DNA of 64,000 nt, from the NCBI GenBank assembly GCA_013215505.1, contig JABSQZ010000003.1, forward strand, positions 124,001-188,000. The letters are read 5' to 3'. Below, piece by piece: positions 11,710 through 63,347 of the stretch (positions are counted from its first letter, which is position 1; every line of letters starts with the position of its first letter). The notes under the pieces are model-generated. The model had not been told where the DNA came from. It did not search any database and was given only the letters and a program-made list of their open reading frames with translations. The stretch comes from Oceanospirillaceae bacterium (lineage in GTDB: Bacteria; Pseudomonadota; Gammaproteobacteria; Pseudomonadales; Balneatricaceae). Made by a program: the position numbers and the translations under genes.

Positions 11710-11717
11710 CATTGGGG

Positions 11718-15643: not shown

Positions 15644-15657
15644 GTAGTAGTAAGTGA

Positions 15658-15680
15658 TGCCTCATAGGGTGTATGAGGCA
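15658..15680 (-). terminator. Stem-loop after smpB
   Basis: TGCCTCAT pairs perfectly with ATGAGGCA across a seven-base loop. The T run is missing, so this may terminate weakly or protect the mRNA end. Confidence 0.5.
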
Positions 15681-15696
15681 TTCGGTATTTGTTTGG

Positions 15697-47272: not shown

Positions 47273-48607
47273 TTATTTAGTTAATAAGGTTTTTCTAAGG
47301 AAATCCTTTCGCTCTTGCTCATCGGTAATTAAATTAGCAAGTTGTTCGCATAATAGCGGGTAATTATCAAAGCGTTTCAGATAACGCTTTACCTGATGCC
47401 TCGCCACTGGGCCCAGAGAATAAGCAAGTGCTAAACTGATTGTTTCAAGTTGTTCGGAGCTAATAGACTGTTTGGGCAGTGGCTGGTTGTCGCTACTAGA
47501 AACTACTTTGACTGCGCTCGTCGCAGAACTTATTGCCAGGGTTTTGCTCGCCTGGCGGATAAACTCCTGACGCTCTTGTGCATTACTGATGTGTTCAGAG
47601 AGCTCCAACATAAAGGCTTCTGCAGAATCGGTATGCGTGGATGTTTTTTTGATTAATAAATTGGCCATAGGTCCTAAGTAGCCCGCTAAATTATTTTCTA
47701 TATTTGCCAAGGTTGCAGCGGGAAGCTTAAGTAATTGCTGGGATTTGCTCTGAATCGAGGTTTTGGCAATGACTGTAGCAACAGCATTTTGTTGCAGCGT
47801 TGCCAGGCTTTCAATTGCCCGCTTGAAATCTACAGCACTGTAATATCTATGCTCCTTAAGCGGCTCAAGGGCCTTGCGAACAATTGCTTGCAAATCCCCA
47901 GGGAGGTGCTGATGCTGCTCAAATACGCTATCTAGAAATTCGGCAATCGGTAGTGTGTATAGTTGTTGAGGGCTCAGTCTTGCCCCGGTTAGCATCTCCA
48001 GAAGCACCATCCCGGTGCTGTAAATATCAGCCTGGCAAGTGACGACTTCTCCGCGCAACCCCTCCGGAGACATATAGTTAGGGGTGCCGACCATGTTACC
48101 GACTAGAGTCAGGTCAGATTGGTCGAGCAGGGCGACACCGAAGTCGGCGACTTTTACCTCTCCGCTATTGAGTAAGATAATATTGGCAGGTTTTATGTCC
48201 CGGTGGACAATATTCTTTTCATGAGCCGCGGTTAGGGCCTGCAGCACTGAGGTAGTGATGAACAGAGCTTCATCAACGCTCAGTTTATCTTCAGAGCGAA
48301 GAAAATGGCTTAGTTCCTCGCCTTCAATATACTCCATAACGATAAAGTCTTGCTGCTGCTGGCTGCCGTAGTCAAATACAGTGACGATGTTGCTGTGCAG
48401 GCATCGCGCGGCGGCCTGAGCTTCACGCTGAAACCTTTTGCTCAGTTCCTCTCCGCGTGGGCCTTGGCAGTGGTGGGGGTGTAGTACTTTGATAGCAACA
48501 GTACGCTCTATCACAGGGTCAAAGGCCTGATAGACGATTCCCATCGCCCCCTGGCCCAGGACTTTCTGTACTTGATACTTGCCCAGTGTAGAAGGTAGAT
48601 TACTCAT
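47273..48607 (-). CDS. Hanks-type serine/threonine protein kinase
   Basis: A 444-residue protein. The kinase domain (8 to about 270) is complete: glycine loop GQGAMG, Lys40 in VAIK, HRDIKPAN with Asp137, DFG at 155-157, and MSPEG in place of APE. There is no transmembrane segment. The C-terminal part contains a duplicated ~55-residue unit, at about 299-353 and 385-440, with LxxYLGPMA, ERxxF and hydrophobic repeats, of the kind found attached to bacterial kinases. It ends 13 bases after the heme sensor gene and diverges from the Tad operon, so the FHA-CpaF protein is a plausible target. Confidence 0.93.
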   Translation of the reverse strand: MSNLPSTLGKYQVQKVLGQGAMGIVYQAFDPVIERTVAIKVLHPHHCQGPRGEELSKRFQREAQAAARCLHSNIVTVFDYGSQQQQDFIVMEYIEGEELSHFLRSEDKLSVDEALFITTSVLQALTAAHEKNIVHRDIKPANIILLNSGEVKVADFGVALLDQSDLTLVGNMVGTPNYMSPEGLRGEVVTCQADIYSTGMVLLEMLTGARLSPQQLYTLPIAEFLDSVFEQHQHLPGDLQAIVRKALEPLKEHRYYSAVDFKRAIESLATLQQNAVATVIAKTSIQSKSQQLLKLPAATLANIENNLAGYLGPMANLLIKKTSTHTDSAEAFMLELSEHISNAQERQEFIRQASKTLAISSATSAVKVVSSSDNQPLPKQSISSEQLETISLALAYSLGPVARHQVKRYLKRFDNYPLLCEQLANLITDEQERKDFLRKTLLTK

Positions 48608-48620
48608 CTGTTTAATACCT

Positions 48621-49502
48621 TCAATTGTCTAACGTGTCGTCGAGCATTTTGACGGCGCTATCCAGACTGTTTTGCATGCGATTAAAAGAGCGGCCTAAGG
48701 AGGCTATCTCATCGTTGCCCCGCAGCTGCAGCGGCGGCAGATCTAAAGTCCCCAAACTGACTTTGTCGACGTGAGCGGCCATCATTTCAACGGGTTTAAT
48801 GACAAAGTTGTTCAGCAACAAGTTAAGCATCATGCCGATGGAAAAAAATACCGCGATGATAGTTCCCATAAATAATAAAAACTCTTTATTGGCCCGATCG
48901 TGTGCCAGTGACAGAGGAACTGAAACCACTTGAGTGCCTATCACTTCATTGAGCTGCCAGCCAAAGCCATTGGTGCGACCATATCGCTTAGTCAGGGCTG
49001 CAGGAGCCGCATCGGGATTGGAGTGGCAAATTAGGCATTTACCGTTGGTTATACGTATCGGCTTGCTCAGATAGAGTGAGCGGCCAGTGGGGGTGTCGCG
49101 CTCGCCTATTAAAACCTTCGCACCGCTGGTTCTAAAATAGCGGATGATGTCCGCCTCCCAATCGGTCGCTCTATTCGCCGGATTAGTTGGATTAAGTGCC
49201 GCTTCTTTGTAGTTGTAATCAGGGTGTTGTTTTTGCAAATAACTAATGTACTGAGCGGCGGCATAGGCGGGTACTGTCTGTGGTAAAAATTCTTTGCTGG
49301 AATTAGCGGCTATCAAAGGTCTTACTTCTTCGACGGTATAGGTGCGTACTGCAATGGAGCTTTCCAATAAAATAGCGGCGGTTTCCAGGGCTTCCTGGCG
49401 TGCATTATCTCGCTGTAAATTAAAGGAAATAACCCCGGATATAAGAATGCCAATTAATCCTGTTGCCAGTAGAATTATATTAAATTTCCATTTTAAAGAC
49501 AT
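48621..49502 (-). CDS. Membrane sensor with c-type heme motif and HAMP domain
   Basis: A 293-residue protein. Two membrane segments (about 8-28 and 208-230) enclose a periplasmic DUF3365/Tll0287-like domain with CLICH at 156-160, a c-type heme attachment motif. A HAMP domain (about 231-283) follows, and then the protein ends. There is no kinase, cyclase or methyl-accepting output. It precedes the Ser/Thr kinase by 13 bases in the same operon, so it probably passes a redox or gas signal to that kinase. The coupling is inference. Confidence 0.85.
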   Translation of the reverse strand: MSLKWKFNIILLATGLIGILISGVISFNLQRDNARQEALETAAILLESSIAVRTYTVEEVRPLIAANSSKEFLPQTVPAYAAAQYISYLQKQHPDYNYKEAALNPTNPANRATDWEADIIRYFRTSGAKVLIGERDTPTGRSLYLSKPIRITNGKCLICHSNPDAAPAALTKRYGRTNGFGWQLNEVIGTQVVSVPLSLAHDRANKEFLLFMGTIIAVFFSIGMMLNLLLNNFVIKPVEMMAAHVDKVSLGTLDLPPLQLRGNDEIASLGRSFNRMQNSLDSAVKMLDDTLDN

Positions 49503-49777
49503 ATGTAATCAGCCCTTTTAGATAAAAATAACTAATAGTGGTCTAAAATTAAATTGTTGAAGTTAATAACATTCAGTAGTATTTTATATTAACGACTTGA
49601 ATAATAAATACTGTAACTATATAGCAACACTAATTCAAATAGAGCAATATAGTTAATAATAGTGTCGTTCGTCTATAAATAGTAAAATATCATATTAATA
49701 CTAGCTAGAGTTAATAAATTTTAAGCTATGTTTTATTTACTCCGCTAGCACTTTAATTTTTCGAGTGGCTGTTTTCT
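49503..49777. promoter_or_regulatory. AT-rich divergent control region of the Tad and kinase operons
   Basis: The 275 bases between the sensor gene and the Tad operon are unusually A/T-rich, with several TATAAT-like and TTAATA runs. It should contain both divergent promoters. No clear operator is visible. Confidence 0.5.
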
Positions 49778-50236
49778 ATGCGAGTAAGCAGAGAAAAAAT
49801 ATTACCTAAAGTTCCGTGGCTTAGAGTTATTCTCAGTGCTCTAATGCAGGTGTTTATTATACTGACGGCTATGTCTTCGATGTTATTTTATCGACTCCTG
49901 CACTTACCTTTGGCACTTAACCAATTCTGCCCAACCAGTGGCACCGATATATATTGTATTGCAAGTGTCACTGAGCAGTTAATCTATGCAAATCAGTGGC
50001 TGGCAATACAATTTATCGTTTATTTTCTACTTAGCATAGTGTTATGGCCTATATTTAGTAAAGCAGTGGGATTGCCTATGATCAACCTTTTATTGGTAGG
50101 GTTTATTTCCACAGTTTGTTTGATGCTGTTGCTAAACAGCGCCGGTATTGAATTTTTTGCCAGCGCACTGTGCCCACTTTTTATCGGCTTATTAATTAGT
50201 GCTAAACGCAAACGACAGATAGTGGTAAACAATTAG
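49778..50236 (+). CDS. Four-helix membrane protein at the head of the Tad operon, unknown
   Basis: A 152-residue protein with four hydrophobic segments and a periplasmic loop holding two cysteines (FCPTSGTDIYC). It ends 31 bases before the pilin gene. It is not a prepilin peptidase, as the GxGD motif is missing. The layout recalls disulphide-handling membrane proteins, but I do not recognise it. Confidence 0.7.
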   Translation: MRVSREKILPKVPWLRVILSALMQVFIILTAMSSMLFYRLLHLPLALNQFCPTSGTDIYCIASVTEQLIYANQWLAIQFIVYFLLSIVLWPIFSKAVGLPMINLLLVGFISTVCLMLLLNSAGIEFFASALCPLFIGLLISAKRKRQIVVNN

Positions 50237-50267
50237 ACAATAAAAAATCAATTAAAAGGTAATAGAG

Positions 50268-50531
50268 ATGAACAGTAAAATCAGGCAGTTAGGACAGGGT
50301 ATGACCGAATATATCATTATCGTGGCACTGATTGCGATCGCGGCTATTGCCGTATATGGCTTTTTTGGTGATGCCATTCGCAGCCAGGTAGGTTCTATGA
50401 CTCAGGAACTGGCGGGTCAAGACGGTACCACTGCGAGAACTAACGCAGGAACAGCTGGTACTGACGCCGGCACGGCAAGTGGTAAAAAGGGTACTTTAAG
50501 TAATTATGGAGCGGAAGATACTGGAAACTGA
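50268..50531 (+). CDS. flp: Flp-type pilin
   Basis: An 87-residue protein. RQLG|QGMTEYIIIVALIA fits the Flp prepilin rule: Gly at -1, Glu at +5 and Tyr at +6 of a hydrophobic helix. The mature pilin has about 78 residues with a tail rich in Gly, Ala and Thr (about 55-75), longer than most Flp pilins. It is the probable main subunit of the Tad pilus. Confidence 0.85.
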   Translation: MNSKIRQLGQGMTEYIIIVALIAIAAIAVYGFFGDAIRSQVGSMTQELAGQDGTTARTNAGTAGTDAGTASGKKGTLSNYGAEDTGN

Positions 50532-50584
50532 GACATTCTGAGTTTAATTGAATGATTTCTAATTACATTCGCTGCAGGCGGATA

Positions 50585-52405
50585 ATGCAGTCTCGCTACC
50601 AGTCAGGTCAGGCTATAGTACTTATATTATTGCTGAGTATTATTGGAGTGCTAGGCGCGGTGATGCTGGTGAGTACCGGGGTTCTGACCAGTGAGAAAAT
50701 GCAATTGCAGAATGCCGCCGATGCTACAGCCTATAGCGTCTCTGTTTTAGAGGCCCGTGATCTTAATTACGGTGCTTATATGAACCGGGCTATGGTGGGC
50801 AATGAAGTGGCGATAGGGCAGATGGTCAGCATGTATTCCTGGGTGAAAATGCTTGAGTCTGAACCCGCTTACTTAAATGCCATCGCCAGCGGCCTGAATG
50901 CCATCCCGCCCCCTGTAGGTACGGCTTTGTCGGCAATAGTGAAAGGTTTTGCCTCTTACATTCGGACCACTTCTAGAGCGGCTGGAAGGGTGGTTTATCC
51001 GCTGAGCGAGAAAGTAGTGATAGGCTTAAAGGGGCTTAATCAGGCGTATAGTTTTTCACAGCAGGCCATGCATTTAGCCACATTAGTGTTTAGCGCATCT
51101 GCAGTTTCACAAGTACCAAAATACAATGTGGCAGAGAATCAGAGTGATGTTTCACTTTCTGCATATGGTTGGTTTGCGCTGGCCATGCACTACGGTAGTT
51201 ACTATGGCGATTTGCTATCGCTACCTGTCTATCAATTTGTTAAACACCCCAGTGGCAGTGACCCTGAGATGTCCCGGTTTGCGCAAGTGGTGAATGATTC
51301 CCGGGACGGTTTTACCCGGCATCGATCCTGCAGTAATAAGCCAGGTGAAAATCTGATCAAAGATGGACTAGATACCATCAATGACGCTATTCAAAGTGTT
51401 ACTCCACCGACCAGTATTGATTTAGGTCCCGTTACAATCGGCATTCCATCCCCGGTAATAACCGGACCTTCCCTAGAGTGTAACGTAGATCCGCAGGGTG
51501 ATACCAATGGCGATCCGACAGGGGGCTGGGCACTGTCACTGATGAACGTGAAAATGGATATGGACTACATTTTGGACTTGGGTCCACTCGGTGAATACGG
51601 TTATGCCTTCGGTGTGGAGTTGGATATCTCAGCGAATCGATTCGGCGGTACCCAGTTGCTCTATGCCGATGCCAAGGAAGAATATATTTGGAGTGCTGCT
51701 GACGGTGCAGGTTTAGGGGTCACCCCCAGTGGCTATTTCGAAATTTGCATTATAGATTGTCTCGATGAAACTATTACTATCTCACTCCCGGAGGTGCCCT
51801 ACGGCGCTGCGTCTGCATTTGCTGGGATACAAAAGCCCAATATGGCGAATATTTCTGCAAATTTGTCCCCGCATCGAGATGTGTTGTACGGTGGTCTCTC
51901 CGGAATGTTAGCGCCTTGGGCCATTATACAAACCGGCCTCAATGCCAAAAACTTGTCTCAACCTTACCGTCTGGCCCAAGGTGGCTATCAGATGATCAGT
52001 GAGCTACCGCAGATAGCGTCTTTTGAGAACAGCCTCCCTTTCATAGGGATGGAGGCGCCCTATATTCTGATCGGCTTAACCCGTGACAAAAATGAAATAT
52101 TTAATGCCGGAAACCTCAGTGGCAATTTAAAACTAGAGGAAGCCGATACTAAACTTGCAGCAGTGGCTAAGGCACAAGTGTACTACAGCTCCCCTGATGA
52201 CCTGAGTGTTTTTTCCACTCAGCGGGCAGCGGCAGCCAATGGCTTTAATCCCTATTGGGATGCGCGGCTGGTGGATACTAGCTATCTGGACAGAGTCTCT
52301 GCGCTGGTGTTCCAGTCGGGACAAATTCCTTTGCCGGGGGAAATCAATGGCACTATAAATTCCTTTAATAAGCTCTTGGCCACTTTTGGCAGTCTGTTTA
52401 AATGA
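50585..52405 (+). CDS. TadG-like pilus assembly protein
   Basis: A 606-residue protein from the ATG at 50585; an ATG 33 bases upstream lacks a ribosome site. The N-terminus QSG|QAIVLILLLS is pilin-like but without Glu at +5. It is followed by LQNAADATAYSVSVLEARDLNY, typical of TadG-like proteins. The large remainder is probably periplasmic, with several cysteines. It is the largest of the pilin-like proteins here and is translationally coupled to the next gene (ATGA). Confidence 0.8.
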   Translation: MQSRYQSGQAIVLILLLSIIGVLGAVMLVSTGVLTSEKMQLQNAADATAYSVSVLEARDLNYGAYMNRAMVGNEVAIGQMVSMYSWVKMLESEPAYLNAIASGLNAIPPPVGTALSAIVKGFASYIRTTSRAAGRVVYPLSEKVVIGLKGLNQAYSFSQQAMHLATLVFSASAVSQVPKYNVAENQSDVSLSAYGWFALAMHYGSYYGDLLSLPVYQFVKHPSGSDPEMSRFAQVVNDSRDGFTRHRSCSNKPGENLIKDGLDTINDAIQSVTPPTSIDLGPVTIGIPSPVITGPSLECNVDPQGDTNGDPTGGWALSLMNVKMDMDYILDLGPLGEYGYAFGVELDISANRFGGTQLLYADAKEEYIWSAADGAGLGVTPSGYFEICIIDCLDETITISLPEVPYGAASAFAGIQKPNMANISANLSPHRDVLYGGLSGMLAPWAIIQTGLNAKNLSQPYRLAQGGYQMISELPQIASFENSLPFIGMEAPYILIGLTRDKNEIFNAGNLSGNLKLEEADTKLAAVAKAQVYYSSPDDLSVFSTQRAAAANGFNPYWDARLVDTSYLDRVSALVFQSGQIPLPGEINGTINSFNKLLATFGSLFK

Positions 52406-53346
52406 GGCTGTTATCAAGAGAGAGTGGCCAGGCGATGACCGAGATGTTAGTTGCCTCGGCCTTTGTATTGGTGCCGTTGTTTTTGATTGTGCCAATTGTC
52501 GGAAAATACATCGACATGCAGCAGGCTGCCGTGACCGCTGCGCGTTACAGCGCCTGGGAAATCACCGTTCATGGGGCGATTGATATGAGCGCTGCCAGCT
52601 CCAGGGTATACGGCGAAGCAGATGATCAGATTACGACAGCGGCTACTGCAGCGGGTACTGGCCGAAAACTGTGGCGCTATCACAATGGCCAAAACATATT
52701 TACTTCTGAAAATTTGGCCAGTTATCGCTCTGATTTTGAAGAGCAAAACAAAGCTCAGCAACAGCTTGGCGCCAGTGGCGGTGAGATTCAGGATTTGACG
52801 CCATTTAACGCCACCCGGGAAATAGTGTCTGCGGTGGGCACTGTGCTTGAAACTGTGACCGATTTTATCAATACGTTTGTCGGCACAGGGGTCTTTGATA
52901 TGATAGACACAGGTGGCACAGCGACAGTAGTGGCGAGTATTTCCACCACCGCTACACCCAATTACCAAAGTCTCAATGCCGACTCCAGTGCAGCATTACT
53001 GGGCAGTGTAGCGCCGGTGTTTTCTGCCAGGGCGCAAGTTTATTCTAAAAATTGGGGAGTGCCCGGTAAAGTGGCGCTGCACGATAAAGTCGAACCTCTA
53101 GTACCCACGGCCATTATTGATAAAGGACTAAACAGTTTTAGTCTCGCTGGTATTACCCCGCAGCAGGCGCTGTCGGTGATCATGTTGTCCCCGGAGATTG
53201 ACCCCTCGCAGTTGAAGTTCGGTCATACGGATTTAGATGTTCATCCGAGGGAGAGGTACCTTGATGCAAATGATCCTGCTGTTCGTCAGTACCCGACAGA
53301 TACACCGCAATTATGCAGTAGTGAGCAGAGTTACTGTCGTGAATAA
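52402..53346 (+). CDS. TadE/TadF-like pseudopilin
   Basis: A 314-residue protein. RESG|QAMTEMLVASAFVLVPL fits the pseudopilin rule (Gly -1, Glu +5, Met +6). A large soluble domain follows. TadE/F proteins are minor pilins processed by the Tad peptidase. Its start overlaps the previous stop and its stop overlaps the next GTG start. Confidence 0.82.
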   Translation: MRLLSRESGQAMTEMLVASAFVLVPLFLIVPIVGKYIDMQQAAVTAARYSAWEITVHGAIDMSAASSRVYGEADDQITTAATAAGTGRKLWRYHNGQNIFTSENLASYRSDFEEQNKAQQQLGASGGEIQDLTPFNATREIVSAVGTVLETVTDFINTFVGTGVFDMIDTGGTATVVASISTTATPNYQSLNADSSAALLGSVAPVFSARAQVYSKNWGVPGKVALHDKVEPLVPTAIIDKGLNSFSLAGITPQQALSVIMLSPEIDPSQLKFGHTDLDVHPRERYLDANDPAVRQYPTDTPQLCSSEQSYCRE

Positions 53347-54019
53347 GTGTTTACTATTATTGCTGCTCTTTGCCCAGAGCTTGCAGTTGGCTGCAGTGCA
53401 GTTGCCATTACCGCCCAAGACACAATTGACCCAAGTGACTGAGCGAGCGCTGGTAAAAGGCATGAATCTACAAATCAGTCAGTTCGAATCGACTTTAAGT
53501 GTGGCAGAGGTTGTTTCGTTTTATCAAAATCTATGGCCTGAAAAATCGATTGTCACTGAATTTAGTCCCTGGACCATGGTCGGCAGTCGCAGTGCTCAGC
53601 AGTTTTATAACGTCCAAGTACAGCCCCAGAGGAGGGGCTCCTGGGGCTATCTGAGTGTTAGCGACCTGCCAAAACAACTGCAGCAGGGAGTGTTTGGAAA
53701 AAGTACTAAACAGCTGCAGCTACCCGCCATGAGCGGTAGTCAATTAATTGATCAGCAAAGGCATCAGGATTTATTAAATACCAGCAAGACTTGGGTGTTA
53801 CGCAACAGCTACTCGGTGGATGCCAACAGCCAGTACTATTTAAATTATTATCTGCAGCGTGGCTGGAAGCTACTGCAAGACACCCGCGGCAGCGGTTTGA
53901 AAGTGCGAGTATTGTTGCTGGGTAAAGCCGGGCAGAGTGTCAGTTTTAGCGTCAGGGCAGATAATGGCCAGAGCGAGATTGTGGCGAATTTGATTAAAGG
54001 AAAAATTGTCGGTGAATAA
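53339..54019 (+). CDS. Secreted protein of the Tad operon, unknown
   Basis: A 226-residue protein from a GTG overlapping the previous stop (GTGAATAA). It has a signal peptide ending near residue 20. The mature part seems to hold two similar halves: LSVAEVVSFYQNLWPEK and later SVDANSQYYLNYYLQRGW, each followed by beta strands. No known family is recognised. By position it may be a periplasmic accessory of pilus assembly. Confidence 0.75.
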   Translation: MNKCLLLLLLFAQSLQLAAVQLPLPPKTQLTQVTERALVKGMNLQISQFESTLSVAEVVSFYQNLWPEKSIVTEFSPWTMVGSRSAQQFYNVQVQPQRRGSWGYLSVSDLPKQLQQGVFGKSTKQLQLPAMSGSQLIDQQRHQDLLNTSKTWVLRNSYSVDANSQYYLNYYLQRGWKLLQDTRGSGLKVRVLLLGKAGQSVSFSVRADNGQSEIVANLIKGKIVGE

Positions 54020-54470
54020 TAGCTCGCAGAGGCATCGTCAGGCAGGACAGTCGATGATCGAGTACACAGTTATTCTGGTGGCCCTGACGACGACTTTGTA
54101 CTCGGTCACTCAGGGACCTTCGACAACCACAGTAATAGGCACCGATAAAGACCAAGACAACTCGTTGATGCAGGGGATACACCGGCGCTATAGCGAACAG
54201 AGCTTTGGTTTGCGTATTACCGATCTGCCTGAGTACAGTAACATCGATGATATTAAGGGCTATTACGAGAATCTTGGAAAGTACCCTGAATTGAGTAAAA
54301 AATTAGGTTCAGCGGCCGCTTCGATCAATCAAGTGACCGCAGGGCTGGATACTTTAAATAACCATATCGAGCAATTAGCAAGTTATAAAGAACGCTTAAA
54401 AAATATTGATCAAGAATTAGAAGGTTATATTAAAGAGGCAGTTGACGATATGACCGACATTGGATTTTAA
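54012..54470 (+). CDS. Pseudopilin-like protein
   Basis: A 152-residue protein from a GTG overlapping the previous stop. RQAG|QSMIEYTVILVALTTT obeys the Flp/TadE rule (Gly -1, Glu +5, Tyr +6). The soluble part is helical with a likely coiled coil in the last 70 residues. It is probably a minor pilin. Confidence 0.78.
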   Translation: MNNSSQRHRQAGQSMIEYTVILVALTTTLYSVTQGPSTTTVIGTDKDQDNSLMQGIHRRYSEQSFGLRITDLPEYSNIDDIKGYYENLGKYPELSKKLGSAAASINQVTAGLDTLNNHIEQLASYKERLKNIDQELEGYIKEAVDDMTDIGF

Positions 54471-54539
54471 AATAAATTATTTCATTAGTGGTAATTTTTC
54501 AGAGCGCCACTGCAGAAATATTTGTAGGGAGATTTGACC

Positions 54540-55946
54540 TTGGCTACCAGCAAAAAATCTTTTATGTTACTGATTATCGCTCTGGGCTTGGGGGTGGTCG
54601 GGGCCTTGTTAGCGATGCTGTATCTGGATGCACGTGAGTCGTCACTCAGAGATTTGCTGCGACCAGATTCGCAGCCAATTTCTGTAGTAGTCGCGGCGAA
54701 AGACTTGCTAAAAGGTGATGTATTGGACGCCGCCTCACTTTCTGTGCGCGAAATACCCGGTGAATTTGTTGACACTAATGCGGTATTGCCCCAGCAATTT
54801 GATAGCATCAAAGGATTGGTGCTGCAACAGAACTTAGCCGCCGGAAAGGTCTTGCTACAAAGCTTTATCGGTAGAGAATTTCCTCTGGATTTCTCTGACA
54901 CTATCGTCATAAAACGTCGTGCCATGACCATACAAGTTGACGAAATGAGTACTTTTACCGGCTTGTTGCGACCCGGTAACAGGATTGATTTGTTTGTCAA
55001 TATCAGTTTATCTGCCAGTGGCGACAAGAGCATAGTGCCAGTGTTGGAAAATGTCGAAGTGCTGACTACTGGCCGCGATAGTGCCTATGACTACAGCGAA
55101 AAAGTGCGTTTTATACGCGGTGGTATCGATGCCGGTATCAAGCAAAATTTCACCACAATTACTCTCAATGTGACACCCAAAGAAGCCTCAATATTAGCGA
55201 TTGCCAAGGACCAAGGCGATCTGTTGGCGCTGCTGCGCAACCGTAAAGATACTTCAGGTTCAGGTTTTAGCGCCATCTCTAATCAGGATATCAGTAGAAA
55301 CGCCCAGCAACTGGCAACTAGAGAGCAGTTGCGACGCAGCTCTGAGCAGTTGGCTGCAGGGATTGTAGTGGGTGAAGATGGGGTACTGCGGACCAGGGAC
55401 GGGGTTGTGCTGGCCAATCAGAATTTAATTATCGGTGCCGATGGCAGTATTCGCACTAAGTCGGGGATCGATCTCTCCGGTCGGGGTTTGAGTCTAAACG
55501 CCAAAGGGGAACTCGTCGACAGGGATGGTAATGTGATAGACCCTGATTCACTGCTCATCGCAGCCGATGGCACAGTGATGACCAGCGACGGCAAGCTATT
55601 GGGTGGAGAAAAAATCAGAAGCTTAGCGGGGGTGAGGCAGCTGGCTAATGGCAAGCTGCAACTTGCAGACGGCACTATCATTGAGGGGGCTACTTTAAAC
55701 AGTGCAGGGCAGCTAGTGCTGGCTGACGGAACAGTAGTAGATCCTGAGAATGTGCGTATCAGAGCAGATGGGAGCATCGTCAGTCTTTCAGGAGAAGTGC
55801 TTGGCAAGGTCTCAAAGATTCTGCCGGGAAGCATAAACAGAGTGTTGAGGGTCACTTCGACAATAGACTATATCGCCGGTGGTATCAGTAAAGACGGGGT
55901 CGCGACCGTACAAAAATTACCTGTAGCCCAAGGGCAAGGACAGTGA
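54540..55946 (+). CDS. cpaB: Flp pilus assembly protein CpaB/RcpC with repeat insertion
   Basis: A 468-residue protein from a TTG at 54540, which has AGGGAG at eight bases; a TTG at 54534 is too close to it. One N-terminal membrane helix is followed by the SAF domain (about 45-115) and the RcpC domain (about 120-240). Residues about 275-423 are seven units of ~21 residues built around ADGxI-x-T-x-xG, as in GADGSIRTKSG and AADGTVMTSDG. They precede the usual C-terminal strand. Typical CpaB has about 250-320 residues, so the insertion is exceptional. CpaB is thought to sit in the periplasm with the secretin. Confidence 0.9.
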   Translation: MATSKKSFMLLIIALGLGVVGALLAMLYLDARESSLRDLLRPDSQPISVVVAAKDLLKGDVLDAASLSVREIPGEFVDTNAVLPQQFDSIKGLVLQQNLAAGKVLLQSFIGREFPLDFSDTIVIKRRAMTIQVDEMSTFTGLLRPGNRIDLFVNISLSASGDKSIVPVLENVEVLTTGRDSAYDYSEKVRFIRGGIDAGIKQNFTTITLNVTPKEASILAIAKDQGDLLALLRNRKDTSGSGFSAISNQDISRNAQQLATREQLRRSSEQLAAGIVVGEDGVLRTRDGVVLANQNLIIGADGSIRTKSGIDLSGRGLSLNAKGELVDRDGNVIDPDSLLIAADGTVMTSDGKLLGGEKIRSLAGVRQLANGKLQLADGTIIEGATLNSAGQLVLADGTVVDPENVRIRADGSIVSLSGEVLGKVSKILPGSINRVLRVTSTIDYIAGGISKDGVATVQKLPVAQGQGQ

Positions 55947-55948
55947 GA

Positions 55949-57352
55949 ATGAATAATATTAAAATCAGCTGCTGTTTTCTTGGACGATGTCGCTGGCTTG
56001 CAGCAGTCGTTCTTCTCTTAACTGTCCCTATAGCCAATGCTGACAATTTTCGGTTGTTTGTCGGCCAGATGAAAACCTTGCCACTGGTTAATATCGATAG
56101 GGTAGCGGTCGGCAACGCCGGACTGGTCAGTACTTCCATTATGAACAATGGCGAATTGCTGATACTGGCTGAGAAAGCCGGTGATACCGAAATTCAAATC
56201 TGGCTAAAGGATGGCGAAACGGTCACTCATAAGTTTTATATTATTCCCGCCAATACCGCCCGAAACGTTGCTGAAGTACGCTCTATTGTTGGCAAGGTAG
56301 CGGGACTTAGCATTCGTCAGGTAGGCAGTAATATCATTCTTAAGGGGGCCATTAGCCACAAGGCTTCGGCCATGCTGAAAAAAGTGACCACTGTTTATAC
56401 TAACGTGTTGGATTTAACTTCAGCCACTGCCAGCAACGATTTAGCTAAAGTGTTTGAAGGTATGAAGCAGCTACAAGTGCGCAGCGCCGGTGATAAATTG
56501 GTGGTCTCGGGTGAAGTCAGTGCCAGAGACAAAGCCTATATAGAAGCGGTGAAAGACTCTTATCCGGAATTAGTGGATCTCACTGTCTCTTCGGAAATTG
56601 TGCCTATGGTGTACATGAAAGTACAAATAACTGAGTTGGGAAATAAGGCCTCTGAGAACTTAGGTATTAAGTGGGATATTAGTACCGAAAGTACTAATCC
56701 AGTGGGCAGTTTTACCACCTTAGGTAATTTCAAAAATAGTATTACCGGCGGTATTAGCGGGGATATCAATGTCACTATCAGTGCGGCAATCAGTGATGGA
56801 AGTGCGCTGTTACTCGCTTCACCGACTTTAAGCGCTCTGAGTGGCAGCGAGGCTGATTTTTTCGCCGGCGGCTCTTTTCCGATTAAAGTGATCAACGATG
56901 GTAAAACCAGTATTGAATTTAAAGACTACGGTCTGAGTCTTAAAATTAAGCCAGTAGTCGGTGCCAATAACAGAATAACAACTTCTATCGCCACTGAGCT
57001 GAGTGATATTGACAGGTCGGTAGCAGTAGATGGAATACCCGGCGTCACTAGTCGTAAAACGGCTACTCAGGTCTCTCTGGAACCCGGGCAGACATTTGCC
57101 ATCAGTGGTTTAATCAACAGAAGCATGAGTCGCGACGTCACCCGTTTTCCCTACCTCAGCAAAGTGCCAATATTTGGGGCACTGTTTAAATCGAAAAATT
57201 TCATCAATAATAAATCTAACTTAGTCATTTTCATCACCCCTTACATTGTTTCCCAAAGTAGCGACATCAACCAGCAACAATTAAAGCTGGCAGAAAACTT
57301 GAAAGCCGACTACTTGGATGAAACTGAGTTCAATTTGGAGATCATAGAATAA
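55949..57352 (+). CDS. cpaC: Tad secretin CpaC/RcpA
   Basis: A 467-residue protein from the ATG at 55949 (a GTG six bases upstream is possible). A signal peptide leads into the N-terminal pilus-assembly domain (FVGQMKTLPL), a BON-like part and the secretin core with EPGQTFAISGL and VPIFGALF. It forms the outer-membrane pore. The stop overlaps the ATG of the ATPase. Confidence 0.93.
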   Translation: MNNIKISCCFLGRCRWLAAVVLLLTVPIANADNFRLFVGQMKTLPLVNIDRVAVGNAGLVSTSIMNNGELLILAEKAGDTEIQIWLKDGETVTHKFYIIPANTARNVAEVRSIVGKVAGLSIRQVGSNIILKGAISHKASAMLKKVTTVYTNVLDLTSATASNDLAKVFEGMKQLQVRSAGDKLVVSGEVSARDKAYIEAVKDSYPELVDLTVSSEIVPMVYMKVQITELGNKASENLGIKWDISTESTNPVGSFTTLGNFKNSITGGISGDINVTISAAISDGSALLLASPTLSALSGSEADFFAGGSFPIKVINDGKTSIEFKDYGLSLKIKPVVGANNRITTSIATELSDIDRSVAVDGIPGVTSRKTATQVSLEPGQTFAISGLINRSMSRDVTRFPYLSKVPIFGALFKSKNFINNKSNLVIFITPYIVSQSSDINQQQLKLAENLKADYLDETEFNLEIIE

Positions 57353-59067
57353 TGTTTGAAGTTGTTGTGATCACAGACAAGGGAGCGAATATTGAGCGGG
57401 TGCGCTGTACGCTTCGCCATTGCACTATTGGCAAGTCGCGAGACAATTTAGTACAAATTCGTGGCTGGCGGGTTGCACAAGTGCACTGCAAGGTGGAACT
57501 GACCGACAAGGGATTGTATGTAGAAGATGTTAGCGAGGGCTCAGGCATCTCCGTCAATGGCAATAAAGTACCCTTCTACGGGCCGATAAGAAGTTCAGAT
57601 GTGATTAGTATCGGTAGCTATGATTTTCGTTTGGGAGCGGTAGAAGATAAGCAGGCAGACTCGGTAAATATATCGCCAAGTGATAATAAGGCGCAGCCGC
57701 AGGTGACCAAAGTGGCCGCGGATGAAGATTGGAGCATGCAGACCTTTATCGGTGGGGCCCTAAACGAAAAAGCCCCCGAGGACAGGGCGGGAGAGATCGA
57801 GCGGCAGCGGATGTTTATGTGGCGCAACCGTATTCACCAGGAAGTGCTGCGGATGATGGATCTTAAGCGCACGGATGTAGGTGCTATGGACGCAGACGAG
57901 TTGCGTCAGAAAGTGGAAGCGCTAATAGACGACGCCCTTGAGAGTATGGGTGGGGAAATCCCGGATAACATCGATGTTACCGAGCTTAAAACCTCAGTGC
58001 TGAACGAGGCTGTGGGACTTGGACCGCTGGAAGAATTATTAGCTGATGATGAAATCAGCGAAATAATGGTCAATGCCTTCGATGATATATACATCGAGAA
58101 AAACGGCAAGTTGATGCGCAGCGATATCGCCTTTAGCTCCGATGCAGCAGTGATGTCGGCCATTGAACGTATCGTATCGCCGCTGGGGCGGCGCATTGAT
58201 GAGAGCTCGCCGATGGTCGATGCCCGACTTCCGGATGGTTCCAGAGTGAATGCGATCATCCCTCCATTGGCATTGCGTGGACCGACACTGACCATCCGAA
58301 AATTTTCCAAGAAAAAGTTAAACGCCGAAGATTTGATGAACTTTGGCACTATTAACCAGCCTATGGCTACTTTTTTACAGATGGCGGTGGAGCAGCACTG
58401 TAATATTATTATCTCGGGGGGCACAGGCTCAGGTAAAACCACGCTGTTGAATATTATGTCTAATTTTATTCCGCAAACTGAGCGGATTATTACCGTGGAA
58501 GATGCGGCCGAACTGAAACTGGTACAACCGCATGTGGTCTCGCTGGAGTCGCGCCCGGCAAACCTGGAGGGTAAGGGGGCGATTCCGATTCGCGATTTAG
58601 TCAGAAACTGTCTGCGCATGCGTCCGGATCGTATTGTCGTCGGAGAGTGTCGCGGCGGAGAGGCACTGGATATGTTAACCGCGATGAATACCGGACACGA
58701 CGGATCGTTAACCACAGTGCATGCCAATACCCCCAGAGACGTTATTTCCCGGCTCGAAGTGATGGTAATGATGGCGGGTATGGATTTACCCGCCAGGGCT
58801 ATTCGCGAGCAAATCGCCTCGGCGGTACATGTGATCGTACAGCAGAGCCGTCTGGCTGATGGCAGTCGTAAAATAACCCACATCTCGGAAATTACCGGGA
58901 TGGAAGGCAATACAGTGCAGCTCAATGATATTTTTGTCTACCAGCAGGAGGGGTTTGACGAGTCTGGCAAAGTGGTGGGCCAGTTCCAGCCAACAGGCCA
59001 GGTACCGCAGTTTTACGAATCGCTGCGATCCAGAGGGATTAAAGTCGATATGAGTATTTTTGGGTGA
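57352..59067 (+). CDS. tadA: FHA-domain CpaF/TadA assembly ATPase
   Basis: A 571-residue fusion. Residues about 22-95 form an FHA fold with IGKSRDN, VHCKVE and GISVNGNKV. A charged linker (about 96-150) leads to CpaF, with Walker A GGTGSGKT at 356-363, VEDAAEL, Walker B RIVVGECRG and a TTVHANTP His box. It powers pilus assembly. FHA domains normally bind phosphothreonine, but here the canonical GR is GK and the SxxH serine is Ala (VAQVH), so binding may be altered. The encoding of a kinase and a phosphatase at both ends of the locus fits control by phosphorylation. Confidence 0.92.
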   Translation: MFEVVVITDKGANIERVRCTLRHCTIGKSRDNLVQIRGWRVAQVHCKVELTDKGLYVEDVSEGSGISVNGNKVPFYGPIRSSDVISIGSYDFRLGAVEDKQADSVNISPSDNKAQPQVTKVAADEDWSMQTFIGGALNEKAPEDRAGEIERQRMFMWRNRIHQEVLRMMDLKRTDVGAMDADELRQKVEALIDDALESMGGEIPDNIDVTELKTSVLNEAVGLGPLEELLADDEISEIMVNAFDDIYIEKNGKLMRSDIAFSSDAAVMSAIERIVSPLGRRIDESSPMVDARLPDGSRVNAIIPPLALRGPTLTIRKFSKKKLNAEDLMNFGTINQPMATFLQMAVEQHCNIIISGGTGSGKTTLLNIMSNFIPQTERIITVEDAAELKLVQPHVVSLESRPANLEGKGAIPIRDLVRNCLRMRPDRIVVGECRGGEALDMLTAMNTGHDGSLTTVHANTPRDVISRLEVMVMMAGMDLPARAIREQIASAVHVIVQQSRLADGSRKITHISEITGMEGNTVQLNDIFVYQQEGFDESGKVVGQFQPTGQVPQFYESLRSRGIKVDMSIFG

Positions 59068-59945
59068 TGAAGACTCTGGCCGATCTGGCGACGGATACAC
59101 TATTCTGGTTGTCGCTGGCGGCAGTGTTTTCTTGCGTCGCTATTATCGGCTGGTTGCTGGTGCGCAGAGCCAATGTCTTTATGAAGGACTATCAATCGGT
59201 GTTTAAAGAGACAGCCACCGGTAACCTGGAAGATATGTACTTGTTTATCGATCCGCAGCAGTTGTTTATCGCCAATATAGTAGCGCTGCTGTTGGTGCCG
59301 ATATTGGCCTACCTTTTCACTGGCAATTTTAGCATTGCGCTGTTGGTGATTGCGGTGCTGATCGTGATCCCCTTTATGGCCTACAAAAGCATGCGTAAGA
59401 AGCGCTTGAAAAAGTTTGAACAGCAATTGCCGGATGTTCTGGTGATGATCAGCGGAGCGCTGGCCTCTGGTTCAAGTTTAAACATGGCGTTACAGAGTGT
59501 CATGTTAGAGCAGCAAGCGCCTATCTCTCAAGAATTCATGTTGTTTGTCCGCGAACAGCGCATCGGGGTCGACTTTGATACTTCGCTGCGCAATATGGAG
59601 CGGCGAATTCCGTTGTTGGACTTTTCGATGTTCTCTGCTGCGATGCGCATCTCCCGGGAAGTAGGCGGGGATTTGGGGGAAGTATTATCGACCCTCGCCG
59701 ATACGCTGCGGCGCAAGTCCTCCATGGAGGGCAAAATAGATGCCCTCACCGCTCAGGGGCGGATGCAGGGAATAGTGATGACCGGACTGCCTATTTTACT
59801 GGGTGGTCTGTTGTTCACTTTAGAACCTGAGGCGATGAGTAAGCTCTTTACCACGCCGATGGGCTGGGGACTACTGTCGGTGATAGTAGTAATGGAAGTG
59901 TTAGGTTATATCTTTATTTCAAAGATCACTAGCATCGATGTATAA
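59067..59945 (+). CDS. tadB: Tad inner-membrane platform protein TadB
   Basis: A 292-residue T2SS-F-type protein with two N-terminal and two C-terminal membrane segments. The conserved cytoplasmic block includes LPDVLVMISGALASGSSL, the R-I-P-L-DFSMF-AAMRISREVGGDL region and RRKSSMEGKI. It starts at the ATG overlapping the ATPase stop; a GTG three bases upstream is also possible. Confidence 0.93.
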   Translation: MKTLADLATDTLFWLSLAAVFSCVAIIGWLLVRRANVFMKDYQSVFKETATGNLEDMYLFIDPQQLFIANIVALLLVPILAYLFTGNFSIALLVIAVLIVIPFMAYKSMRKKRLKKFEQQLPDVLVMISGALASGSSLNMALQSVMLEQQAPISQEFMLFVREQRIGVDFDTSLRNMERRIPLLDFSMFSAAMRISREVGGDLGEVLSTLADTLRRKSSMEGKIDALTAQGRMQGIVMTGLPILLGGLLFTLEPEAMSKLFTTPMGWGLLSVIVVMEVLGYIFISKITSIDV

Positions 59946-59987
59946 GTTAACGGCACATATTGACAGACCAAGGGAGTGCCCAATAGC

Positions 59988-60878
59988 ATGTTTGAAATGA
60001 CCCTGGAGTTAGTCTATCTCGGCGCAATTATTGCCATTGGGGTAAGTATTATGTTGCTGTTTTACCTGGCTCAGAAGGCTATGCCCGAACAACCGGAAGA
60101 TGTGCGTACCTATATGGATCCGCTTCCCGGTGGCCTAAAGCTTATCTGGCCATTTGTGATGATGGTGAGTGTGCTGGTGGAGATGCTTTACAGCAACAGT
60201 TATTTAGATTCCGTGGAAAAGAAATTACAGCATACCGGAGTGAGCTACATACTGACCGCAGAGCAATTTATTGCACTGCGCTACGTCTCTGCAGCTATCT
60301 GCACACTGTTGACATTACTGGTGTTGCTGTCGTTAAAAAATGTTCAGGAGATATGGCTGTTTCTTAGTCTGGCTCTGCTGGGTGGGTTCATGTTCCCCTC
60401 TGTGTGGTTGTCCGATACCCGAAAACGCCGGGAGCTACAGGTGATCAGGGCGCTGCCTATCTATCTGGATTTTACCACTATGGCGGTAGAGGCCGGGCTA
60501 AACTTATCCGGGGCTATGCAGCAGGCATTAAACAAGGGCCCCAAGGGAGCGCTGCGCAATGAGTTTAGCATTGTCATGCGGGATATGCGCTCGGGTGTGA
60601 CCAGGGCCGAAGCGCTAAAGCGGATGGATGCGAGGTTGCAGGTGGACGATATAACCCGCTTTGTGAATGCGATGATCCAGGCGGAAAAAATGGGCTCGAG
60701 CATGGCGAAAACCTTGCGGATCCAATCTGAACAGCGCCGTACCGAGCGCTTTCAGCGGGCCGAAAAAAAAGCCATGGAGGCACCGGTGAAATTAGTCTTT
60801 CCACTGATAGTATTTATCTTTCCTGTGACTTTTATGGTGTTGGGTTTTCCGATTGCCATGAAATTTATGTCCATGTAG
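59988..60878 (+). CDS. tadC: Tad inner-membrane platform protein TadC
   Basis: A 296-residue T2SS-F-type protein from the ATG at 59988, with AGGGAG eleven bases upstream. The pattern LPIYLDFTTMAVEAGLNLSGA, then QAEKMGSSMAKTL and RAEKKAMEAPVKLVFPL, is typical for TadC. It acts with TadB as the platform that works with the ATPase. Confidence 0.93.
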   Translation: MFEMTLELVYLGAIIAIGVSIMLLFYLAQKAMPEQPEDVRTYMDPLPGGLKLIWPFVMMVSVLVEMLYSNSYLDSVEKKLQHTGVSYILTAEQFIALRYVSAAICTLLTLLVLLSLKNVQEIWLFLSLALLGGFMFPSVWLSDTRKRRELQVIRALPIYLDFTTMAVEAGLNLSGAMQQALNKGPKGALRNEFSIVMRDMRSGVTRAEALKRMDARLQVDDITRFVNAMIQAEKMGSSMAKTLRIQSEQRRTERFQRAEKKAMEAPVKLVFPLIVFIFPVTFMVLGFPIAMKFMSM

Positions 60879-60891
60879 TTAAAGGAAGAGT

Positions 60892-61248
60892 ATGCAGCAG
60901 CGGGAGATGCACTTTAATGGCAGCATTGTATTACAGATTTGGATTACCCAAAGCTTTAGGGAGCGTAATCGCGGTCTGTTGGCGCTGCCGGGCCTGGAGC
61001 CTGGGCAGGGGTTGTTAATCACTCCCTGTCGCTCAATTCATACTTTTGCCATGGGCTATAGCCTAGATGTACTGTATTTGGATAGAGGTTTAAAGATAGT
61101 TAAAATTGTTGAACATATGCAGCGAAACCGCATGTCCATGGCCCTGTTAGCGCACAGTACTTTAGAAATCAACGCCGGAGAAGTGCAGCGCCTGGGGTTA
61201 AAGGTGGCAATGCAAGGTGAGTTAAGCATATTTTGCCAGAGTGCTTAG
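60892..61248 (+). CDS. DUF192 family protein
   Basis: A 118-residue protein with the DUF192 pattern: RNRGLLALPGLEPGQGLLI, PCRSIHTFAMGYSLDVLYLD and LEINAGEVQRLGL. The fold is a small beta barrel of unknown function. It is often found in Tad loci. It overlaps the frame before tadD. Confidence 0.85.
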   Translation: MQQREMHFNGSIVLQIWITQSFRERNRGLLALPGLEPGQGLLITPCRSIHTFAMGYSLDVLYLDRGLKIVKIVEHMQRNRMSMALLAHSTLEINAGEVQRLGLKVAMQGELSIFCQSA

Positions 61249-61318
61249 CCGCAGTAATACAGAGATTATATTGGACTTGTTTGGGTGTTACCCAATGAAT
61301 ATATCAGTGGAGTTAATA

Positions 61319-61792
61319 ATGAAAAGCAGTCAGTGGGTAGTATTGGGGTTATGTGTGTTGTTAAGCGCTTGTAATTCTTTACAGCAAAAGCCTCAGGCCG
61401 AAGGAGAGCTTAGCAAAGGGGCGAGTGAATATCAGCACAACTTAGACAGGGCAGATGCAAGCTATCTGGGTAGGGAATATAGCCAGGCCTTGAGCCAGTA
61501 TCAAAGTATTCATGACGATTACCCTCAAGACCTGCATGTGTTATTTCGTATTGGCAATATTTATAGCCATTTAGATAAGCCTAAAGAGGCGATAATAGCG
61601 TATGAGAAGGTACTGGCGGTGGATACAAAAAAGAGCAAAGCCTGGTATAACTTAGGGGTAAGTTACATGCAACAAAGTGCTAAAATCTGGCGGCATATGA
61701 GTGAGCAGATAGACCCCAAAGATCCACTTTATAAGTCGTCAAAACATTACAGTCGTGGCATGTCAGAACTTATTAATCCTGATAAATCTTAA
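61319..61792 (+). CDS. tadD: TadD-like TPR lipoprotein
   Basis: A 157-residue protein from the ATG at 61319, with GGAG upstream. The lipobox is LLSAC with Cys near 18. At least two TPR units follow, around YSQALSQYQSIHDDYP and PKEAIIAYEKVLAVD. TadD is thought to be a pilotin or assembly factor for the secretin. Only two to three repeats are seen, fewer than in some TadD proteins. Confidence 0.85.
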   Translation: MKSSQWVVLGLCVLLSACNSLQQKPQAEGELSKGASEYQHNLDRADASYLGREYSQALSQYQSIHDDYPQDLHVLFRIGNIYSHLDKPKEAIIAYEKVLAVDTKKSKAWYNLGVSYMQQSAKIWRHMSEQIDPKDPLYKSSKHYSRGMSELINPDKS

Positions 61793-61810
61793 CTAAAGAG
61801 TAACTAGCCA

Positions 61811-62554
61811 ATGTTTTATCAGCGCGGCCAGGCGATGGTTGAGATGGTGGTGATCTCCTTTGTTACCTTGCTGTTGCTGTTTAGTATTATCCAGTTTGCG
61901 CTGCTCTATAACGCCAAAACAGTACTCAACTATGCGGCCTTCGAAGCGGCCCGGATCGGTGCGCTAAATTACTCGCATCCACAGTCGATGCGCATGGCAC
62001 TGGCACAGAAACTGGCCATCTTAGAGCCTGTCGACAGTGACCCAAATGATACAAGCTATCAAAAACTGGTTGATCAGCAAACTGCTTTTATGAGCAATTT
62101 TGATAGTATCGCCTGTATTCGAAGAGTTAACCCACCAAGCTCTTCCTCTCACTGGGTTGGAAACCAGCTAGCTGCTCAAACCAGCAGCAGTATCGTCAAT
62201 GATCATTTAGTGCATCGTGATGCAACGCCTCTAGGGGACCCACTGCAATCAATCCAAGACGCCAACCTATTGAAAATATCGGTGACTTACTGCCCTAAAA
62301 TGATAGTGCCTATTGTCTCGACGGCGATCAAAAGGTTGATGCTGGTGGCGTATCATGACAGTGATCCCGACCCTATCGATGGCTGGGAGGTAACGGCCGA
62401 CCCGATCAGTTTTCATAAACAGTGCTATGAGAATGACCGCTTTCCGATGGTGGCGCAGGCGCTCGTCAGGATGCACACTCCGGCGGGTAAATACGGTTAT
62501 AGCGATACAGATTGTGAAGAACTGACTCGTCTCTCGCAACAGTTGGGGCCCTAA
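61811..62554 (+). CDS. tadE: TadE-like pseudopilin
   Basis: A 247-residue protein. YQRG|QAMVEMVVISFVTLLLL fits the pseudopilin rule (Gly -1, Glu +5, Met +6). LNYAAFEAARIGAL is typical of TadE. It is the fourth pseudopilin-type gene of the operon, placed after TadD. Confidence 0.85.
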   Translation: MFYQRGQAMVEMVVISFVTLLLLFSIIQFALLYNAKTVLNYAAFEAARIGALNYSHPQSMRMALAQKLAILEPVDSDPNDTSYQKLVDQQTAFMSNFDSIACIRRVNPPSSSSHWVGNQLAAQTSSSIVNDHLVHRDATPLGDPLQSIQDANLLKISVTYCPKMIVPIVSTAIKRLMLVAYHDSDPDPIDGWEVTADPISFHKQCYENDRFPMVAQALVRMHTPAGKYGYSDTDCEELTRLSQQLGP

Positions 62555-62561
62555 GCTAAGA

Positions 62562-63347
62562 ATGGCTAACTCCAGGAGCTCAATGTATCAATATTCCGCC
62601 AGTACGGATAAAGGCACGGTCTATCAGACTAACCAGGACGCACTGGACTTTGATCGCAAACATTGCTGTTTCGTGGTCGCGGACGGTGTCGGAGGGTATC
62701 AGTCGGGAGAGGTTGCAAGTGCGTTCGCGGTGCAACAATTGATGCAACAGCAAGCTGGACTCGCCGAAGCGGGATTGACTGGAAAGCAGGCTGAGTCTGC
62801 TCTCAGTGCAATACTGCAGGCGACTAACCGCCGTTTAATTAACATAGCGGCTGGTCAGCAACTGTCTATGGGAACCACTGTTGTGACTGGCATAATACGT
62901 CAGCGAACATTGCACTACACCCATGTGGGGGATTCGCGGTTGTACTTACTGCGCAAGGGGTTGCTGGCTCAGTTAACAAGGGACGACAGCCTAAAGGAGC
63001 AAATGCTGGATCTGGTCGCTGGCGACCTTGCAGCCGTTGAACAGCATGTGCCCAGTAATATAGTGACGCAGGCGATGGGGTTGACTGACCCCCTGGTGGT
63101 CAATTACGGGAGGTGTGAGCTGCGCTGCGGAGACCTGCTGTTGTGCTCCACCGATGGATTACACGATGTGTTAGAGCACAGTCAATTAGAGCAGGCGCTA
63201 AAATCTATTAATCACTTACCCAGTGGTGCCAGACATTTGGTCGATTTGGCATTGAATAATGGCAGCAGAGATAACATCAGTGCATTGCTGATCAGGGTGT
63301 CAATGCACTGGTATGAAAGGCTAATAGAAAAACTGCGCAGATACTGA
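62562..63347 (+). CDS. PP2C-type serine/threonine phosphatase
   Basis: A 261-residue protein with PP2C signatures: TNQDALDF, VVADGVGGYQSGE with metal-binding aspartates, GTTVVTG, THVGDSRLYLLR, STDGLHDVL and GSRDNISALLIRV. There is no membrane segment or signal peptide. It follows the TadE-like gene by seven bases, so it is part of the Tad operon. The obvious partner is the Ser/Thr kinase at the other end of the locus, and the likely substrate is the FHA-linked machinery. Confidence 0.93.
   Translation: MANSRSSMYQYSASTDKGTVYQTNQDALDFDRKHCCFVVADGVGGYQSGEVASAFAVQQLMQQQAGLAEAGLTGKQAESALSAILQATNRRLINIAAGQQLSMGTTVVTGIIRQRTLHYTHVGDSRLYLLRKGLLAQLTRDDSLKEQMLDLVAGDLAAVEQHVPSNIVTQAMGLTDPLVVNYGRCELRCGDLLLCSTDGLHDVLEHSQLEQALKSINHLPSGARHLVDLALNNGSRDNISALLIRVSMHWYERLIEKLRRY

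Follow-up and report, generated by a model that had tools for sequence, protein, structure and literature searches.

How is the assembly of a Tad pilus tuned when its genes stand beside a Ser/Thr kinase, a heme sensor and a PP2C phosphatase, and when its own assembly ATPase, CpaF, carries an FHA domain? The question is raised by a stretch of 64,000 nucleotides from an Oceanospirillaceae bacterium (GCA_013215505.1, contig JABSQZ010000003.1, positions 124,001–188,000), here called the window, in which such a locus occupies positions 47273–63347 (Table 1). In type VI secretion systems (T6SS), threonine phosphorylation by a kinase, a phosphatase and an FHA protein, the PpkA–PppA–Fha pathway, controls assembly of the machine, and a first-pass annotation of the locus had proposed by analogy that pilus assembly is switched post-translationally, with a redox or gas signal entering through the c-heme sensor.

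The reading put forward here, which we hold with about even confidence, is that a split, probably nitric oxide (NO)-responsive receptor kinase, opposed by the PP2C phosphatase, tunes the Tad machine, and that the FHA domain of CpaF does not read phosphothreonine. The state of the covalently bound periplasmic c-heme of the sensor, with NO as the probable signal, would be relayed via HAMP to the cytosolic kinase, which may dock on the sensor by C-terminal repeats named GP-A here; kinase and PP2C, as presumed partners, would determine how far one or more Tad proteins are phosphorylated and in this way tune pilus assembly, and the FHA domain, in a TadZ-less machine, would serve for docking independent of phosphate. 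This reading draws on four features of the sequences, namely a conserved pair of sensor and effector, the mutual exclusion of FHA-CpaF and TadZ, a degenerate FHA pocket and the recurrence of the pair beside FHA-type Tad and T6SS genes. The strongest new point appears to be the split receptor with GP-A-tailed effectors, common to T6SS and FHA-type Tad loci.

The heme sensor and its GP-A-tailed effectors

In a class sample of 369 genomes, the sensor was found at E 1e-20 in 29, including that of the window, and 32 other sensor places were fetched. A kinase lies within 1.5 kb at 23 of these places, on the same strand at 22, with the sensor first at 14 and the kinase first at 8; free of a kinase are L152, L153, L161, L229, L233, L234, L236, L237 and the second fragment in L151 (L and G numbers are our designations of loci and genomes). 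Among relatives of the order, the pair is present in all four loci compared (L136–L139), away from Tad. When 30 paired kinases from the window, L013, L028, the order relatives and the class sample were compared, the ATP-site Lys was kept in 30/30, the HRD Asp in 28/30 and the DFG Asp in 26/30, one sequence being cut short, and the kinase-domain tree distributes the paired kinases over at least three groups.

The feature that unites these kinases is a repeat at the C-terminus, roughly 45 residues long and containing an invariant GP, which mostly occurs as two units and is carried by 21 of the 23 paired kinases of the class sample; of the exceptions, L230 ends before the repeat and L235, encoded on the opposite strand, is devoid of it. 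GP-A has no significant match in Pfam, its profile reached only E 0.085 at best against the PDB, and the kinase tail modelled by AlphaFold2 from the single sequence gave a predicted local distance difference test score (pLDDT) of 48.8. When 17,279 open reading frames (ORFs) from 219 loci were searched with a profile derived from 26 kinase tails, 34 ORFs matched (33 genes, one locus being duplicated), each of them in a sensor-bearing locus, the kinase matches largely by construction. Seven non-kinases outside the profile also carry the repeat, five matching the class III cyclase family (four above the cut-off and that of L153 slightly below), one with a weak ACT match and one with a weak DUF4388 match. 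With non-kinases counted, a GP-A protein is found within 600 bp at 26/32 sensor places, and the heme sensor with a separate GP-A-tailed effector is, as judged by gene content, a conserved two-gene pair. In L154 (6079–10091) and L155 (6920–10930), the sensor has as neighbours both a kinase and a class III cyclase-like protein that carry GP-A, and in L238 (2104–3087; G158) an FHA-GGDEF protein, a candidate reader of the pair's phosphorylation, adjoins the pair. A literature search, mostly outside subscription journals, retrieved no description linking DUF3365/Tll0287 with Ser/Thr kinases.

Outside the chromosomal samples, 9 of 72,556 plasmid records match the sensor and 4, all within those 9, match the GP-A tail of L138 used as query. 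The pair is complete in 6/6 proteobacterial records, with the repeat recognized on each kinase by the profile (two were missed by the single-tail search), and it adjoins T6SS genes in five, three from Caballeronia and one each from Skermanella and Paraburkholderia; two of these T6SS-adjacent records show a PP2C gene directly after the kinase, and 3/3 records inspected further encode complete T6SS clusters that include the FHA protein TagH. The sixth record, from Rhodovulum, has no T6SS gene within 3 kb, two examined of the three cyanobacterial records have no kinase, and single queries with TssM, TagF, TssH/ClpV, TssB, TssC and TssK at E 1e-8 in the other loci returned, besides the T6SS locus of the window genome itself, only a ClpV-like match in L235. 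These placements suggest that one gas- or redox-controlled switch serves different cell-surface machines, with a possible NO signal tied to both T6SS and pilus control. GP-A, unmatched in Pfam, may be what connects receptors with soluble kinases and cyclases; tentatively, we regard it as an undescribed coupling module through which HAMP-ending heme receptors would recruit cytosolic kinases or cyclases bearing one or two units, and which in proteobacteria might form an NO-responsive plug-in controller of FHA-containing T6SS and TadZ-less Tad machines.

The pair beside Tad loci and the nature of its signal

Kinase, PP2C and FHA occurrence was surveyed in three sets of Tad loci: 80 of 94 loci related by CpaF, with flanks up to 10 kb and some short contigs; 38 loci out of 145 genomes of the order; and 60 loci among the matches listed from 398 genomes sampled across the phylum, where 36 of the loci have a long CpaF frame that leaves room for an FHA domain and 24 do not. 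Together with the window and two sensor-found loci, they yield 103 FHA-CpaF rows, or 99 distinct loci, as four are present twice; kinship is ignored in all locus and genome counts and Fisher tests. By CpaF identity, the closest named relatives among the 80 of 94 loci are Oceanospirillaceae bacterium genomes (91% and 86%) and the Osedax symbiont Rs1 (88%). Profile searches in the first set found FHA in 76, a kinase in 15, PP2C in 16 and the sensor in 2 of 80 loci.

Near CpaF, a kinase occurs in 23 and PP2C in 21 of the 99 distinct FHA loci, and neither lies within 12 kb in any of 78 FHA-less loci (Fisher p 5e-7 for the kinase, and p 0.007 when the loci with a canonical FHA pocket, treated below, are removed, leaving 8/81 rows; kinship ignored). 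Among FHA loci flanked by 8 kb or more of sequence on each side, the kinase is present in 19/68 and absent from 49/68. In this sample, kinases thus accompany only FHA-type Tad loci, and most FHA-type Tad loci (76/99) are without one. The first-pass annotation had named two findings that would speak against its proposal, frequent FHA-CpaF genes without kinase or phosphatase neighbours and no phosphorylation of any Tad protein by the kinase, and the former is what the sample shows. The proposal of post-translational switching gains from the exclusive association and loses by the many kinase-free loci and the degenerate pocket. That kinase and PP2C are general companions of FHA-CpaF was considered and rejected, the order and phylum samples containing a kinase near 6/24 FHA loci, all six with a canonical pocket and of one lineage.

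The sensor–kinase pair itself adjoins FHA-type Tad genes in the window, L013, L028 and, among genomes of the class, G379 and G476, positions that fall at three separate points of the CpaF tree; G379 has the divergent layout of the window, the kinase of G476 belongs to a different tree group, and the contig of L009 ends before the sensor–kinase position. As the Tad core genes keep the same order in most of the 80 related loci and the pair recurs beside Tad in L013, L028, G379 and G476, the arrangement of the locus is not due to chance. PP2C follows TadE directly in the window, L009 and L028, and in two sister loci, L010 and L012, TadE is succeeded on its own strand by a kinase and then PP2C, the kinase of L010 being a CHASE2 receptor Ser/Thr kinase (15100–17688, including the following PP2C) and L012 having the same layout. 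Kinases near FHA-type Tad loci are spread over several groups of the kinase tree, and the presence of different externally gated kinases at one Tad type argues for a functional link. Across genomes, FHA-type CpaF, called by match E and frame length, was detected in 8/28 sensor genomes and 23/340 others (p 0.001, kinship ignored).

The most serious alternative, on balance a doubtful one, is that the genes are neighbours only, the pair being an independent stress regulator that stands by chance beside the pilus genes and PP2C serving the whole cell. It is favoured by the closest full-length kinase homologues within the order, which adjoin the sensor and not Tad, and by the genome, which has only two PF13672 matches, the locus PP2C and a kinase fusion, but it has to account for adjacency at three places of the CpaF tree (fewer gains with losses being possible), for the restriction of kinases to FHA-type loci and for the position of PP2C right after TadE in three loci.

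Several observations weigh against a receptor kinase that tunes Tad together with PP2C. The pair is next to Tad at only 2/32 sensor places of the class sample, FHA-CpaF and sensor are side by side in 2/8 genomes, several of the others being fragmented, and fewer gains together with losses could account for the three Tad placements. The loci of G379, G476 and L013 yielded no PP2C, and the window PP2C shares 46–47% identity with those of L009 and L028, whose CpaF proteins share 88–91%, and 35% with that of L010, by identity no more than a possible orthologue. On the side of the signal, the NO data come from one distant relative, and stand-alone members of the sCache_heme family are assigned redox roles by the same study (PMC12889525).

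That relative, a Pseudomonas azotoformans protein composed of a transmembrane (TM) helix, sCache_heme, a second TM helix and HAMP without an axial Cys, is reported to release NO with a dissociation rate constant (koff) of 6.25e-4 per s and to form no stable O2 complex (PMC12889525). The window sensor is predicted to belong with such HAMP-linked NO sensors, having CxxCH within the Tll0287 domain, TM helices, HAMP and no distal Cys; its only two Cys lie in the CxxCH motif itself (CLICH, residues 156–160, 49023–49037). The tight NO binding of the HAMP-only relative strengthens the earlier idea of a gas or redox input through the c-heme, and by analogy the signal of the window sensor, whose own NO sensing we infer, is probably NO. 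Alternatively, the heme domain might be a redox or electron-transfer unit and no gas sensor, with the kinase reporting the respiratory state, as the redox-like behaviour of a stand-alone family member would suggest (PMC12889525); HAMP and the missing distal Cys fit the NO-binding class instead, and we consider this alternative unlikely.

The FHA domain of CpaF and the TadZ-less Tad type

The FHA domain of the window CpaF is predicted to fold as such (AlphaFold2 pLDDT 90), with the FHA domains of Ki67 and GarA as top Foldseek matches. The functions of the pocket positions, as described for FHA structures, were transferred to aligned residues of the 103 rows. The pocket of the window reads K-A-H-G-S-G compared with K-S-H-T-N-G in the lineage linked to kinase and PP2C, corresponding to changes of S to A, T to G and N to S, with the Arg position occupied by Lys as also in the canonical CpaF lineage. 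The phosphothreonine-binding residues are missing, and from their loss the window domain is predicted not to read phosphothreonine; the presence of an FHA domain alone is no proof of such reading.

Ser and Asn are both kept in 20/99 distinct loci, of which 15 have a kinase and 14 PP2C, some of the remainder being short contigs, and not both kept in 79/99 including the window, with PP2C in 7/79. Most of the canonical set belongs to a single lineage (Ketobacter and others), whose loci, if long enough, also encode a second canonical FHA protein; canonical rows outside it are L059 and L067, without a kinase, and L079, with one. Kinase-free relatives with full flanks show the same pocket loss as the window. 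Between the genes for DUF192 and TPR proteins, L105 (5446–7062) and similar kinase/PP2C-linked Tad loci encode a second FHA protein of about 540 amino acids with a near-classical pocket.

Control after the PpkA–PppA–Fha1 model, in which the kinase phosphorylates a Tad threonine, the FHA domain of CpaF binds it and PP2C resets the state, has in its favour a gene set like that of the T6SS pathway and a relative lineage in which a single locus contains kinase, PP2C, a canonical FHA domain on CpaF and another canonical FHA protein, but it is distinctly improbable, as the window domain and its kinase-free relatives are without the Ser and Thr–Asn contact residues and a kinase is near only 8/79 distinct loci with a non-canonical pocket. 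What stands of the analogy drawn in the first-pass annotation is the same pair among T6SS genes elsewhere, twice with PP2C; phosphothreonine reading by the window FHA is not supported, and the direct PpkA–Fha1 analogy was discarded for the window on account of its pocket residues.

A TadZ/CpaE profile matched within 5 kb of CpaF in 0/100 FHA rows (0/96 distinct) versus 71/78 FHA-less loci, DUF192 near CpaF in 92/100 versus 2/78, and the conserved protein orf260 in 90/100 versus 0/78; in a rapidly built CpaF tree, 91 FHA forms among the 108 rows are separated from 17 FHA-less ones by one change, with weak support (Shimodaira–Hasegawa-like approximate likelihood ratio test, SH-aLRT, 80). In the examined loci FHA-CpaF and TadZ are mutually exclusive as far as profile matches tell, and FHA-CpaF marks a TadZ-less Tad subtype with DUF192 and orf260. 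Tad pili would divide into TadZ and FHA types, and the FHA domain may assume the role of TadZ. No description linking TadZ with FHA-CpaF was found in the literature search, which lay mostly outside subscription journals. In FHA-type Tad loci of Shewanella and Pseudoalteromonas, a frame of about 1,400 amino acids follows TadE (L035 15115–19392 and similar).

Gene content of the locus and known systems

All ORFs named in the first-pass annotation were recovered where it had placed them, by ORF coordinates and Pfam matches, as were the transcription of kinase and sensor opposite to the Tad genes and PP2C immediately after TadE; the Flp-type pilin, the DUF192 gene and the 152-residue membrane protein are additions. 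The Tad/Flp gene set is complete in CpaF ATPase, TadB, TadC, secretin, CpaB, TadE/G proteins and Flp pilin. TadZ/CpaE was not found in the locus, to which, and not to the remainder of the genome, that search applied.

Table 1. Features of the Tad locus in window coordinates (aa, amino acids)
Feature	Position	Strand	Evidence
Ser/Thr kinase, 444 aa, C-terminal tandem GP-A repeat	47273..48607	-	Pkinase 9.6e-50; HRDIKPAN and DFG present
GP-A repeat unit 1 of kinase (about residues 300-352)	47552..47710	-	Pfam: no significant match
GP-A repeat unit 2 of kinase (about residues 387-440)	47288..47449	-	profile of kinase tails
c-heme sensor: TM, Tll0287/sCache_heme, TM, HAMP, no output domain	48621..49502	-	Tll0287-like 3.9e-40; HAMP 8.1e-10
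152-aa membrane protein between sensor and pilin	49778..50236	+	Pfam: none; profile match 5/80 related loci
Flp-type pilin, 87 aa	50268..50531	+	prepilin-like start GQGMTEYIIIVALIAIAAIAV, recognised by eye; NCBIfam: none
TadG-like protein 1	50552..52405	+	Pfam Tad 2.7e-4, slightly below cut-off
TadG/TadE-like protein 2	52402..53346	+	Pfam: none; profile match 70/80 loci, same position
orf260, conserved, no Pfam family above cut-off	53237..54019	+	profile match 67/80 loci, 0/78 FHA-less loci
Minor pilin-like protein	54006..54470	+	prepilin-like start GQSMIEYTVILVALTTTLY, recognised by eye
CpaB/RcpC	54534..55946	+	RcpC 2.9e-18
CpaC/RcpA secretin	55943..57352	+	Secretin 5e-39
FHA-CpaF assembly ATPase	57352..59067	+	FHA 2.7e-9; T2SSE 6.9e-69
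FHA domain, degenerate phosphothreonine pocket	57421..57615	+	pocket K-A-H-G-S-G; model pLDDT 90
TadB platform protein	59064..59945	+	T2SSF 1.2e-15
TadC platform protein	59976..60878	+	T2SSF 6.9e-19
DUF192 protein among Tad genes	60892..61248	+	DUF192 3.7e-14
TPR protein, TadD-like	61241..61792	+	TPR_1 1e-10
TadE	61811..62554	+	TadE 2.8e-10
PP2C phosphatase	62562..63347	+	PP2C_2 2.1e-12; solved relatives include PppA (6jkv), Stp1 (2pk0), PstP (2cm1)

Elsewhere in the genome, the prepilin peptidase family PF01478 has a single match, on a different contig, and the two FHA matches are CpaF and a TagH-like T6SS protein. The second PF13672 match besides the locus PP2C lies in a single frame that joins PP2C with a Ser/Thr kinase (L141, C34, 7689–9440), and L140 (C18) is a T6SS cluster with IcmF/TssM, a kinase-like protein and an FHA protein with GR, SRVH and STNG motifs. 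Distant from the Tad locus, window positions 2599–13334, next to the tmRNA gene (13407–13763), encode Resolvase, Toprim, VapE-like and HNH proteins, DUF4379 repeats and a phage-type integrase, and look like an element integrated at tmRNA.

Among known systems, the PpkA–PppA–Fha pathway likewise combines kinase, PP2C and FHA protein near a secretion machine, and a kinase with predicted intact catalytic motifs and PP2C are encoded beside the machine here as well; it differs in that the present FHA domain is on a pilus ATPase without a phosphothreonine pocket and that sensing falls to a protein of its own. In CpaF class III, as in the window protein, an FHA domain stands N-terminal to the CpaF ATPase, and the class is described as mostly betaproteobacterial (PMC12019362), whereas this survey includes many gammaproteobacteria and the present loci are in addition TadZ-less, with a mostly degenerate pocket and a kinase at some loci. 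The Kil system of Myxococcus xanthus is also a Tad-like machine with an FHA-fused ATPase, KilF, but is encoded in two gene clusters and has no TadG or TadD, and the words kinase and phosphatase are absent from the main text of the paper (PMC8460266). EssC of the type VIIb secretion system (T7SSb) is likewise an assembly ATPase whose FHA domain no longer has the phosphothreonine site and docks its partner independently of phosphate, although machine and ATPase family are other ones and the partner of EssC is a pseudokinase (PMC11217815); its docking is a precedent for phosphate-independent FHA docking in the window. Finally, the HAMP-only protein of P. azotoformans shares two TM helices, c-heme Cache, HAMP and the lack of an axial Cys with the window sensor. 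For it no output partner is named, and no word beginning with 'serine' or 'threonine' occurs, in the available main text (PMC12889525), whereas the sensor has as its partner a GP-A-tailed kinase in the window and elsewhere a cyclase-like protein, which suggests an output for these newly described HAMP-only heme-Cache NO sensors.

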